DNA of 32,754 nucleotides. Source: Spirosoma fluviale. GTDB lineage: Bacteria > Bacteroidota > Bacteroidia > Cytophagales > Cyclobacteriaceae. The notes under the pieces are model-generated. The model had not been told where the DNA came from and did not search any database. It saw only the letters and a program-made list of their open reading frames with translations. The DNA is taken from the NCBI GenBank assembly GCA_945872775.1, contig CAMCBC010000006.1:1-32754 (forward strand), read 5' to 3'. The translations under genes and the position numbers were made by a program. Below are positions 4,334 to 22,008 of the stretch, one piece after another (position 1 is the first letter of the stretch; every line of letters starts with the position of its first letter).

Positions 4334-4357
4334 AGCCCCGTATCCACGGGGCTTTTT
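4334..4357 (+). terminator. Intrinsic terminator after DUF5606
   Basis: Perfect 7-bp stem AGCCCCG/CGGGGCT with a TATCCA loop, followed by TTTT. It starts 5 nt after the stop codon of the DUF5606 gene. Confidence 0.88.
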
Positions 4358-4359
4358 CA

Positions 4360-4367
4360 TACCTTAG
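4360..4367 (+). promoter_or_regulatory. -7-like element TACCTTAG, 4 nt before ATG
   Basis: One mismatch to TAnnTTTG, separated from ATG 4372 by CGAG. This is the same 4-nt spacing seen at marC, the helicase and ccmB. It lies directly after the terminator, where a new promoter is required. It predicts a leaderless transcript. Confidence 0.45.
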
Positions 4368-5889: not shown

Positions 5890-6342
5890 TTAGCCTTGTT
5901 GCTCGTAGACGGTATCTGCGGGTAAGTTGGGCTGCTCTGCTGCTGCCACGGCCAACTGGTCACAACGCTCATTTTCGGGGTGACCTGCGTGCCCTTTAAG
6001 CCAGAAAAACTTGGGCTTAAACTTCAGGTGGAGGGGTATGTAGCGCAGCCAGAGGTCCGGATTTTTTTTGTCTTTGAACCCTTTTTTCTGCCAAGACCAA
6101 AGCCAGCCTTTTTCGATCGCATCGACTACGTACTTGCTATCCGAATAGACCTGCACGGGATATTCGGTGGTCTTGATCTCCTGGAGCGCACGGATCACGG
6201 CTAGGAGTTCCATGCGGTTGTTGGTTGTCAATCGGAAGCCTTCAGATAGCTCTTTTCGGTGCTGCCCAAACTTCAGCACTGCTCCATAGCCTCCAGGACC
6301 TGGGTTGCCTTTGGCTGCTCCATCGGTGAAAATGACAATCAT
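5890..6342 (-). CDS. rnhA: Ribonuclease HI
   Basis: 150 residues, close to the E. coli enzyme. It cleaves the RNA strand of RNA:DNA hybrids (R-loops, Okazaki primers). The metal-binding DEDD set is visible: Asp7 in FTDGAAKGNPGPGGYG, Glu45 in NNRMELLAVI, Asp68 in YSDSKYVVDAI and Asp128 in NERCDQLA. His118 in LKGHAGHPEN is the catalytic-loop histidine. The basic handle region (LWSWQKKGFKDKKNPDLW) is present, so this is the E. coli-like RNase HI subtype. The ATG at 6342 is preceded by TTTCTTTG-TTGC, a weak version of the 4-nt-spaced -7 pattern. It lies 37 nt behind marC on the same strand and may also be read from there. Confidence 0.95.
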   Translation of the reverse strand: MIVIFTDGAAKGNPGPGGYGAVLKFGQHRKELSEGFRLTTNNRMELLAVIRALQEIKTTEYPVQVYSDSKYVVDAIEKGWLWSWQKKGFKDKKNPDLWLRYIPLHLKFKPKFFWLKGHAGHPENERCDQLAVAAAEQPNLPADTVYEQQG

Positions 6343-6346
6343 GCAA

Positions 6347-6354
6347 CAAAGAAA
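6347..6354 (-). promoter_or_regulatory. Weak -7-like element TTTCTTTG, 4 nt before the rnhA ATG
   Basis: One mismatch to TAnnTTTG (second base), at the same N4-ATG spacing as the TACCTTTG sites. Alone it would not be worth calling; it is listed because of the shared spacing. Confidence 0.3.
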
Positions 6355-6379: not shown

Positions 6380-6967
6380 TCATCCTCCAGCTAATGGAAA
6401 GGCGTTGGTCTTGAAGATTTTCACAGCAATCGACAAGAGAATAATTCCAAAGATTCTACGAAGCACGTCTACTCCTGTTTTTCCAAGTTTACGCTCTAGC
6501 CAATTCGTGCTTTTAAGTACGATGAACACAAAAATCAAGTTGAGCAGGATGCCTATGGCAATGTTGATCTGTTCAAACTCTGCCTTCAAGGTCAAGATAG
6601 TCGTAAGCGTACCCGCTCCGGCGATCAATGGAAATGCAATGGGTACGATGGAAGCACTGGTACTGGCAGTGGCTTCGGGGTCTGGTTTGAAGAGCTCAAT
6701 CCCCAAAATCATCTCAGCACCAAGTGCGAAAATGATCAAGGCTCCTGCGATGGCAAAGTCTTCCACACCAATGCCAAACAAATTCAGGATGGACTTTCCC
6801 ACCAATAGGAAGGTAATCATCAACACCCCTGCCACGATGGTGGCTTTCCCAGATTGAATATGGCCTACTTTTTTACGTAGGTTGATGATGATGGGAATAG
6901 ATCCCAAAATATCAATCACGGAAAATAAGATGAGGGAAACCGAAAGAATTTGTTTGAAATCTACCAT
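6380..6967 (-). CDS. MarC-family integral membrane protein
   Basis: 195 residues with six hydrophobic segments, the usual size of the MarC/YchE/YhgN family (UPF0056). Family features include an N-terminal helix with LILFSVIDILGSIPIIINL, the conserved IAFPLIAGAGTLTTILTL segment in the middle (residues about 110-128), and a final helix RRIFGIILLSIAVKIF. The family is an inner-membrane protein of unknown transport role. Despite the name, its link to antibiotic resistance was not upheld in E. coli, to my knowledge. The ATG is preceded by TACCTTTG-CGTC, so a leaderless mRNA is likely. It is followed by rnhA. Confidence 0.88.
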   Translation of the reverse strand: MVDFKQILSVSLILFSVIDILGSIPIIINLRKKVGHIQSGKATIVAGVLMITFLLVGKSILNLFGIGVEDFAIAGALIIFALGAEMILGIELFKPDPEATASTSASIVPIAFPLIAGAGTLTTILTLKAEFEQINIAIGILLNLIFVFIVLKSTNWLERKLGKTGVDVLRRIFGIILLSIAVKIFKTNAFPLAGG

Positions 6968-6971
6968 GACG

Positions 6972-6979
6972 CAAAGGTA
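6972..6979 (-). promoter_or_regulatory. -7 promoter element TACCTTTG, exactly 4 nt before the marC ATG
   Basis: The minus strand reads TACCTTTG-CGTC-ATG. It is a perfect TAnnTTTG match with the start site expected at or near the A of ATG. I see no good TTTG at -33. The same octamer and spacing occur at 19830-19837 and 19954-19961. Confidence 0.65.
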
Positions 6980-18514: not shown

Positions 18515-19825
18515 CTAAATCACTGTTATCCTAACTTTTTTCTCCTTGAGTTTTTGATTGTTTACCTTGGGGAGGACCTGCTCCAGAACAGCTGATTTTA
18601 CTGCAACAAAAGCACAATCAACTTTCAGTTCAATCGCGCCAAGTTCGGCCGCATTGATCCCCCCTTGTTTCAAAAAGAAGCCGGCAATATCCCCCTTGGA
18701 AATTTTATCTTTTCTTCCTCCTGAGATCAACAAAGTACTCCAAGTTGAGGGGGCAGGTAGGGTGGAGGGAAGCAATTTTTCAAGTGCTGGCTTTCCTACA
18801 AAATCGGGCAAGGGCTCTTTTTCATACTGAAGGATGTAGGCAGTTCCTTCGCTATTCATACGTGCCGTGCGTCCATTGCGGTGGATAAACTCTTCTGCAC
18901 GAAGTGGAAGGTGGTAATGGATGATGAAATCCAGTTCGGGTACATCGATTCCTCTTGCAGCCAAGTCCGTAGCGAGGAGGAGCGGATAGGTGCCATTTCT
19001 AAATTTGATTAGGGATCGTTCCCTATCAATTTGCTCCATGCCCCCGGAAAAAACGCCGTGTGAAATGTCGTGGTCGCTTAAGTAGTCACTCACCCGTTGG
19101 ATGGAGTCCTTGAAATTGCAAAAGATGATCCCATTTTTCGATCCCAGTTGTCCCAGCAACTGTCCGAGTGTTTCGAGTTTGTCTTTGGTCGGGGAGACGA
19201 CTTTTTTGACTTGGAGCTGGGAGATTTTATCTTCTAGAAAATCCAGTACTTGAGGAGATTTTAGTCCCACAAAACGCGGAATTTCTACCCCTTGGGTGGC
19301 TGAGGTAAGGATTTTTCTACCTACACCGGGCAGTGCATGGAGGATGTCTCGCATTTCTCCTTCAAAGCCGATTTCGAGGGATTTGTCAAATTCATCCAAA
19401 ACTAGGCTCTGAACAAAGGCAGTGTCAAAGGCTTCCCTGCGCAGGTGGTCTGCTACTCGTCCAGGCGTGCCCACAAGGACTGCTGGGCGGTGTTTGATTT
19501 CCATTCTGTCCTTTGACCCCGCGCGGCCACCGTACACCGCATTGACCTTGAATCCTGTTCCCATCTGTCGAACGACTTGTTCGATCTGGATGGCAAGCTC
19601 CCGGGAAGGAACCAAAATTAAAAGTTGAACCTCCTCACAGGTGGGATCGAGTTGCAGAAGTAGTGGCAAGAGAAAAGCCAAGGTCTTTCCTGTGCCGGTA
19701 GGCGATAATAGGATCAGGTGGGCCGACTTCTCCATTGCCTCTTGCGTGGCAAGCTGCATGGGATTGAGCTGGGTGATGCCGAGTTTGGCGAGGATTTCCT
19801 CCTGATTTTTGACGCGAGTGGACAT
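18515..19825 (-). CDS. DEAD-box family RNA helicase, DbpA-like, with DEFD motif
   Basis: 436 residues from ATG 19825 (MSTRVKNQEEILAKLGI). The ORF-track extension to 19864 would run through the promoter element and adds 13 atypical residues. Superfamily 2 motifs: Q-motif NPMQLATQ, I SPTGTGKT (41-48), Ia VPSRELA, Ib TPGRV, II DEFD (144-147, in place of DEAD), III TSAT, IV IIFCNF, V ATDLAARGID, VI HRNGRTARM. The last 65 or so residues (KGDIAGFFLKQGGINAAELGAIEL ...) resemble the DbpA C-terminal RNA-binding domain that recognises 23S rRNA, so a role in large-subunit assembly is likely. The A-to-F change in motif II keeps both acidic residues, so ATPase activity should remain. It is divergent from ccmB. 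Confidence 0.9.
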   Translation of the reverse strand: MSTRVKNQEEILAKLGITQLNPMQLATQEAMEKSAHLILLSPTGTGKTLAFLLPLLLQLDPTCEEVQLLILVPSRELAIQIEQVVRQMGTGFKVNAVYGGRAGSKDRMEIKHRPAVLVGTPGRVADHLRREAFDTAFVQSLVLDEFDKSLEIGFEGEMRDILHALPGVGRKILTSATQGVEIPRFVGLKSPQVLDFLEDKISQLQVKKVVSPTKDKLETLGQLLGQLGSKNGIIFCNFKDSIQRVSDYLSDHDISHGVFSGGMEQIDRERSLIKFRNGTYPLLLATDLAARGIDVPELDFIIHYHLPLRAEEFIHRNGRTARMNSEGTAYILQYEKEPLPDFVGKPALEKLLPSTLPAPSTWSTLLISGGRKDKISKGDIAGFFLKQGGINAAELGAIELKVDCAFVAVKSAVLEQVLPKVNNQKLKEKKVRITVI

Positions 19826-19829
19826 GTGA

Positions 19830-19837
19830 CAAAGGTA
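19830..19837 (-). promoter_or_regulatory. -7 promoter element TACCTTTG, exactly 4 nt before the helicase ATG
   Basis: The minus strand reads TACCTTTG-TCAC-ATG. It predicts transcription start at or beside the ATG at 19825 and excludes the longer ORF-track start. The -33 element is not evident. Confidence 0.65.
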
Positions 19838-19953
19838 GTCTTTTTGTCGGGCTCCTCTTCCCATGTTGCTGGAATCTACCCATTCGTGGCAGGAGTAATT
19901 CCTATTCCTTCATTTTCAATTTTGGCAGGTTCGACGCTTGAAAAGGATTTTGC

Positions 19954-19961
19954 TACCTTTG
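19954..19961 (+). promoter_or_regulatory. -7 promoter element TACCTTTG, exactly 4 nt before the ccmB ATG
   Basis: The plus strand reads TACCTTTG-TGGC-ATG. Octamer and spacing are identical to the divergent helicase promoter 117 bp away, which suggests equal, leaderless expression of the two genes. Confidence 0.65.
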
Positions 19962-19965
19962 TGGC

Positions 19966-20631
19966 ATGTGGAAGGAAATTTCGGTCCTGATTCGTAAAGA
20001 GATTACGCTGGAGTGGAGGCAAAAATATGCCCTCAACGGGATCTTGCTATATGTGGTATCCGCTGTATTTATCACCTATCTCAGCGTGGGAGCCAAGATG
20101 GGAAACCTTTCTATTCCAACTTGGAATGCCCTTTTTTGGATCATTTTACTTTTCTCTTCGGTCAATGCTGTAGCCAAAAGTTTTGTACAAGAGCAGCAGG
20201 GACGGCAGTTGTATTACTACATGATTGCTTCCCCAGAATCCATCATCCTTTCCAAAATTTTTTACAATACCGGCCTTACCCTGATTTTGGCGCTCCTGGG
20301 TTTTGGGGTGTTTTCAGTGGTGTTGGGTAACCCAGTTCAAGACCAGGGATTATTCCTTCTGAACCTTGTGCTTGGTGCAATGGGATTTTCAGCCAGCCTC
20401 ACTATGGTCAGCGGGATAGCTTCCAAAGCAGGTAATAATGCCACGCTGATGGCAATTTTGAGTTTTCCAGTGATTATTCCCATCCTGTTGATGGCGATCC
20501 GAATCTCCAAAAACGCACTTGATGGATTGGATTGGAGCGTCAGTAGCGACAAGCTCCTCAGCCTCTTGGCCATCAATGTCTTGGTTGCTACCACTTCCTA
20601 CCTTCTTTTCCCCTATTTGTGGAGGAGTTGA
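19966..20631 (+). CDS. ccmB: Heme exporter/cytochrome c maturation membrane protein CcmB
   Basis: 221 residues with six hydrophobic segments, the family length. The start MWKEISVLIRKEITLEWRQKYALNGILLY is the characteristic N-terminus of CcmB (RKE..LEWR), followed by VNAVAKSFVQEQQGRQLYYYMIASPESIILSKI, the most conserved block, and the C-terminal LFPYLWRS. CcmB is the membrane subunit of the CcmAB ABC transporter in system I cytochrome c maturation; with CcmC and CcmD it helps release holo-CcmE in the inner membrane. The usual ccmC neighbour is missing: directly after the stop begins an AT-rich islet with genes on the opposite strand. The product itself is intact. It is transcribed from a divergent leaderless promoter. 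Confidence 0.93.
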   Translation: MWKEISVLIRKEITLEWRQKYALNGILLYVVSAVFITYLSVGAKMGNLSIPTWNALFWIILLFSSVNAVAKSFVQEQQGRQLYYYMIASPESIILSKIFYNTGLTLILALLGFGVFSVVLGNPVQDQGLFLLNLVLGAMGFSASLTMVSGIASKAGNNATLMAILSFPVIIPILLMAIRISKNALDGLDWSVSSDKLLSLLAINVLVATTSYLLFPYLWRS

Positions 20632-22000: not shown

Positions 22001-22008
22001 TATCTTTA
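22001..22008 (+). promoter_or_regulatory. -7-like element TATCTTTA, 4 nt before the SDR ATG
   Basis: One mismatch (last base) to TAnnTTTG, then AACC and ATG 22013. The spacing matches the TACCTTTG sites and it predicts a leaderless mRNA for the SDR/dipeptidase unit. Confidence 0.5.

Follow-up and report, generated by a model that had tools for sequence, protein, structure and literature searches.

A stretch of Spirosoma fluviale DNA of 32,754 nucleotides (contig CAMCBC010000006.1; the window) carries the same octamer, TACCTTTG, exactly 4 nt ahead of the ATG of three genes: marC, a DbpA-type helicase gene and ccmB. This arrangement, called N4 below, raises the question of whether transcription of these genes begins on the start codon itself. 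Promoters of the primary sigma factor of Bacteroidota, sigma-ABfr, are described as -33 TTTG / -7 TAnnTTTG (TAHHTTTG) in three publications (PMC6847099, PMC7366714, PMC9723704). The -7 element of F. johnsoniae is T-12 A-11 T-8 T-7 T-6 G-5, with the start site 4-5 nt downstream (PMC6847099), and the box of F. psychrophilum lies at -12 to -5 (PMC9723704).

We hold it to be highly probable that each octamer is the -7 element of a promoter that serves this primary sigma factor and that, with the element exactly 4 nt ahead of the ATG, the A of this ATG would be the first base transcribed by RNA polymerase. In that case marC, the helicase gene and ccmB, and probably also rnhA, an SDR gene and a gene for a 104-residue protein, would give mRNAs without a leader, and ribosomes would begin translation by recognizing a 5'-terminal AUG. 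Publications on relatives supply the octamer's role as a promoter and its distance to +1; that the leader is lacking, and how translation begins, are predictions.

Sites and genes in the window

A pattern search of the window for TANNTTTG-N4-ATG finds exactly three sites, those named by the sequence-only reading, against 0.36 expected by chance; none of 100 shuffles reaches three. The marC site TACCTTTGCGTCATG (6965-6979) lies on the minus strand, with the -7 element at 6972-6979 and the spacer CGTC plus ATG at 6965-6971. The F. johnsoniae spacing rule places the predicted +1 on the A at 6967, the first base of marC (6380-6967, minus strand), which encodes a MarC/NAAT family membrane protein (PF01914). 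The helicase site TACCTTTGTCACATG (19823-19837, minus strand) comprises the element at 19830-19837 and TCAC plus ATG at 19823-19829, with the predicted +1 at 19825. On the plus strand, the ccmB site TACCTTTGTGGCATG (19954-19968) comprises the element at 19954-19961 and TGGC plus ATG at 19962-19968; the predicted +1, at 19966, opens the gene for a heme exporter of the CcmB family (19966-20631, PF03379).

Degenerate octamers, each with one mismatch to TAnnTTTG where the first three are exact, are present at N4 before three further genes, as the sequence-only reading had described. They are TTTCTTTG-TTGC-ATG before rnhA (element 6347-6354, minus strand, ATG 6340-6342), in which T replaces A at -11, TATCTTTA-AACC-ATG before the SDR gene (22001-22008, plus strand, ATG 22013) and TACCTTAG-CGAG-ATG before the 104-residue gene (4360-4367, plus strand, ATG 4372). 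ATG is the start codon of all six genes. Domain matches bear out the names given earlier to marC, the helicase, ccmB, rnhA (product RNase HI) and the SDR gene (product adh_short), and family searches returned no match for the 104-residue protein. No tRNA gene was detected when the window was scanned for them.

The helicase gene (18515-19825, minus strand) encodes a DEAD-box protein with a DbpA RNA-binding domain; PF00270 (DEAD), PF00271 (Helicase_C) and PF03880 (DbpA) are all matched above cut-off. Its score against the NCBI equivalog DbpA, NF008744, is 298 bits, below the cut-off of 524, and the protein is therefore called DbpA-type rather than DbpA. The longest open reading frame starts at 19864, so that the ATG at N4 is an internal methionine 13 codons downstream (corrected start MSTRVKNQ). 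A longest-ORF call thus translates the promoter and would read it as protein (...QKDYLCHM). Longest-ORF calls of leaderless genes in Bacteroidota are likely to be too long.

Terminators add a geometric argument. Before the 104-residue gene, an intrinsic terminator (4334-4357, plus strand; -14.7 kcal/mol, z -3.25) has an 8-bp stem at 4334-4353 and a TTTT run ending at 4357, 2 nt from the octamer and 14 nt from the ATG, which leaves a separate transcript of this gene room for scarcely more than a very short leader. In four relatives a strong terminator hairpin also precedes rnhA, its T-run ending 2 nt before the octamer. This hairpin is the marC terminator (GCCGG...CCGGC followed by T6-7), and terminator and predicted leaderless rnhA promoter fit there into about 40 nt. 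A good terminator at this place is confined to those four relatives: the hairpin preceding rnhA in the window is weak (-3.2 kcal/mol). Additional upstream promoters may exist; marC and rnhA, 61 and 37 bp, respectively, behind co-directional genes, are the notable cases.

Spacing across the genome

The spacing histogram that the sequence-only reading had proposed as a check was run on 1.43 Mb of the source genome, with 1170 genes called by a dicodon model; gene starts outside the orthology-tested set are calls of this simple model. The distribution is not flat over N0-N15. The perfect octamer stands at N4 before the candidate ATG of 10 genes, against a mean of 1.46 over N0-13 without N4 (Poisson P 3e-6), and every other spacing below N14 is occupied by 0-3 genes. 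When the six letters are rearranged into their 29 other orders, N4 holds 0.86 genes on average and at most 3. In the same 1.43 Mb, GTG and TTG candidate starts have no N4 peak (1 and 0 genes, respectively, against the 10 with ATG). Both the motif and its N4 peak are direct observations.

Gene context agrees with a promoter at these sites. A divergent upstream neighbour is found for 8 of the 10 N4 genes and for 278 of the 1051 others (26%; P 7e-4), and none of the N4 genes lies within 30 nt behind another gene, as against one third of the remaining genes. Of the 47 N4 sites that the entire 2.6 Mb draft (79% complete) contains, about 24 precede coding ORFs. Further predicted leaderless genes of this genome include hemE, clpS, tilS, rluD, an RluA-type pseudouridine synthase gene and two ABC-F ATPase genes, as well as dnaB, gpmI, kdtA-like, cvfB-like and gluQ-like genes and those for an ECF sigma factor and a histidine kinase.

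Chance alone could place an AT-rich octamer at one spacing before three genes of the window, and about half of the 47 matches indeed have no coding ORF behind them, while the reversed pattern gives 29 matches. The significance of the N4 peak speaks against this, and the conservation footprints described below already contradict it; we give chance practically no weight.

One-mismatch octamers are only modestly enriched at N4 (21 against 12.6, 1.7-fold), so that the case for the degenerate sites of the window is made by conservation and the position of terminators rather than by numbers. The earlier proposal that six promoters form one leaderless class is supported at the three exact sites, at rnhA and the SDR gene through retention at N4, and at the 104-residue gene through its terminator.

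The octamer also forms a second, broad peak at N15-26, that of an ordinary leadered class. This bears on the proposal that the N4 octamer is a translation-initiation element in an mRNA that starts farther upstream, a proposal which draws on the description of Bacteroidota as lacking Shine-Dalgarno sequences and using other features close to the start codon (PMC6847099). An element of that kind would not be expected to recur in front of leadered genes, as it does here and, mostly at N16, at marC of other genera, nor directly after terminators, as in some of the cases above. Moreover, A is rare at -6 to -3 in the N4 genes, unlike in leadered genes, although the motif itself fixes some of these positions. 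We regard a translation element as very improbable.

A closer competitor accepts the promoter and places the start 1-3 nt upstream of the ATG, in which case the mRNAs would have very short leaders instead of none at all. Start-site choice usually varies by a base or two, and a few orthologs have spacings of N5-N7, which would give leaders of 1-3 nt. The published start sites also lie either 4 or 5 nt past the element (PMC6847099). At a distance of 4 nt, +1 of an N4 gene is the A of its ATG; at 5 nt, this A would be missing from the AUG of the transcript. The source genome alone leaves +1 unfixed, as only 34% of its own leadered promoters have A at the predicted position. Against short leaders, the spacing is sharply N4 and does not spread over N4-N8 (10 genes against 3, 2, 1 and 1 at N5-N8), and among helicase orthologs N4 outnumbers N5 by 39 to six. 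Short leaders are thus unlikely in our view, if less so than the other alternatives, and a start on the A of the ATG is preferred.

Conservation of the spacing within and beyond the genus

The genus comparison covers 41 genomes, a closely related sample whose flanks have diverged and in which ortholog counts are not independent; conservation is given as the mean share of the commonest base. For marC, 28 of the 29 distinct orthologs have a spacing of 4, and conservation reaches 99% at the six fixed positions, compared with 50% over the 48 nt upstream. The corresponding values for ccmB are 23 of 28 orthologs, 93% and, in the flank, 44%. Retention of octamer and spacing between diverged flanks, in dozens of genomes, shows that the distance from octamer to ATG is itself maintained and disagrees with a chance origin. 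Judged from these alignments, the exact N4 spacing is under selection.

The arrangement TTTCTTTG-N4-ATG before rnhA is kept in most genomes of the genus, and the SDR gene has either TATCTTTA or the TAnnTTGY-like TATCTTGT, nearly always at N4. On this evidence the degenerate members can be considered real in at least two cases. A pyrimidine directly precedes the ATG in 29 of 29 marC, 25 of 28 ccmB and 29 of 39 helicase rows, the pattern expected for a pyrimidine-purine transcription start. Together with the N4 peak, the retention of N4 by marC, ccmB, rnhA, SDR and helicase orthologs supports the leaderless prediction with which the analysis began.

Genome sizes in the genus fall into two groups, of about 2.2-2.8 Mb (drafts, 67-91% complete, the source genome included) and about 4-6 Mb, which suggests that the smaller genomes belong to a streamlined clade.

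Beyond the genus the genes part ways. Among 58 promoter-bearing helicase orthologs, 39 have N4, six have N5 and 47 fall within N3-5, across several orders of Bacteroidota. By sample, N4 is found in 11 of 16 orthologs from the family, 22 of 29 from named genomes and 6 of 13 from the class, and it persists down to about 44% protein identity. Spacings of N3-5 occur in Kordia, Lutibacter, Nonlabens, Sunxiuqinia, Saccharicrinis, Fulvivirga, Cryomorpha and Saprospiraceae, and Reichenbachiella has N5. In many Flavobacteriaceae without the N4 arrangement, the gene lies directly behind another. The helicase can therefore be described as a very widely conserved predicted leaderless gene. The nearest named relative found, a Cytophagales metagenome-assembled genome, has a helicase of 91% identity, and the adjacency of helicase and ccmB is seen only in the nearest relatives. 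A complete genome of the same genus has no close helicase ortholog, the best match reaching 32% identity.

In other genera, marC with a perfect octamer has spacings of N14-N29, or else the gene lies directly behind another, so that the predicted leaderless marC is particular to the source genus. N4 is found in 9 of 23 promoter-bearing ccmB orthologs of the family, the remainder having mostly N6-9 or N16-17. Class-wide, N4 is found in 5 of 30 hemE, 4 of 30 rluD and 4 of 30 clpS orthologs, the rest being leadered or without a perfect octamer.

A complete genome of another genus has about 22 distinct N4 genes, of which 7 are orthologous to N4 genes of the source genome, while a hand calculation from gene counts gives an expectation of about 0.1. 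The shared genes are rluD, the dbpA-type helicase gene, a sugar nucleotidyltransferase gene, hemE, clpS, tilS and an ABC-F gene. On these comparisons, the predicted leaderless class is conserved gene by gene.

Relation to known promoters and significance

The sites resemble published sigma-ABfr promoters in the octamer and in an expected start site 4-5 nt downstream. No clear peak of a -33 TTG element was seen in 82 leadered promoters of the source genome, and the -33 element of F. johnsoniae is described as weak, too (PMC6847099). The difference is that +1 is predicted here on the start codon, whereas most published promoters are leadered, with medians of 24-32 nt.

Leaderless mRNAs are already known in Bacteroidota, at about 4-6%. 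Published figures are a leaderless share of 5.5% in F. psychrophilum (PMC9723704), leaders below 10 nt for about 3.7% in B. thetaiotaomicron, and 13% with leaders of at most 10 nt in F. johnsoniae (PMC6847099). The transcripts predicted here are of the same type and of comparable proportion, roughly 10% of perfect-motif promoters by a rough estimate. They differ in that named genes keep the architecture across genera, and the helicase across orders; the passages cited contain neither cross-species conservation nor these genes. A search of largely open-access literature turned up no description, for Bacteroidota, of leaderless genes that are conserved or of a DbpA-type gene that is leaderless, and gene-specific conservation appears to be new.

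In the TA-led leaderless genes of Actinobacteria and Deinococcus-Thermus, too, a -10/-7 box some 12 bp ahead of the start codon is taken to mark a gene as leaderless, the box there being a sigma-70-type TANNNT rather than TAnnTTTG; the same survey left many Bacteroidetes genes 'atypical' (Zheng et al. 2011, PMC3160421). A further likeness concerns the SDR gene: in six close relatives its -7 box is TATCTTGT, at N4 and thus at -12 to -5, as in the F. psychrophilum motif SM5, TAnnTTGY (PMC9723704), whereas the window and other relatives have TATCTTTA at the same gene. A switch of sigma factor with retention of the start position is possible at this gene.

A functional theme for the N4 set finds no support. 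With classes assigned by eye, 8 of about 24 N4 genes concern RNA or the ribosome (those for the helicase, two ABC-F proteins, two pseudouridine synthases, cvfB, tilS and gluQ), against about 8 in a random sample of 40 leadered-promoter genes (two ABC-F, GlnRS, SerRS, RbfA, SpoU, TrmB and NusB), which gives no significant enrichment. Any regulatory reason for retaining leaderless starts is speculation; the conservation itself is observed. One rather doubtful idea is that selection across Bacteroidota keeps leaderless a gene set led by the DbpA-type helicase because undissociated or immature ribosomes translate it differently; the helicase and further factors related to RNA or the ribosome would then be made when normal initiation is impaired.

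TAHHTTTG-N4-ATG offers a simple sequence rule for leaderless genes in a phylum that lacks Shine-Dalgarno sequences and in which start codons are difficult to assign; applied to the helicase gene, the rule shifts the start 13 codons into the longest ORF. Named genes with a long-kept predicted leaderless start make the purpose of leaderless translation directly testable in culturable relatives, and marC, leadered in other genera and predicted to be leaderless in the source genus, would be a natural test case for the switch.
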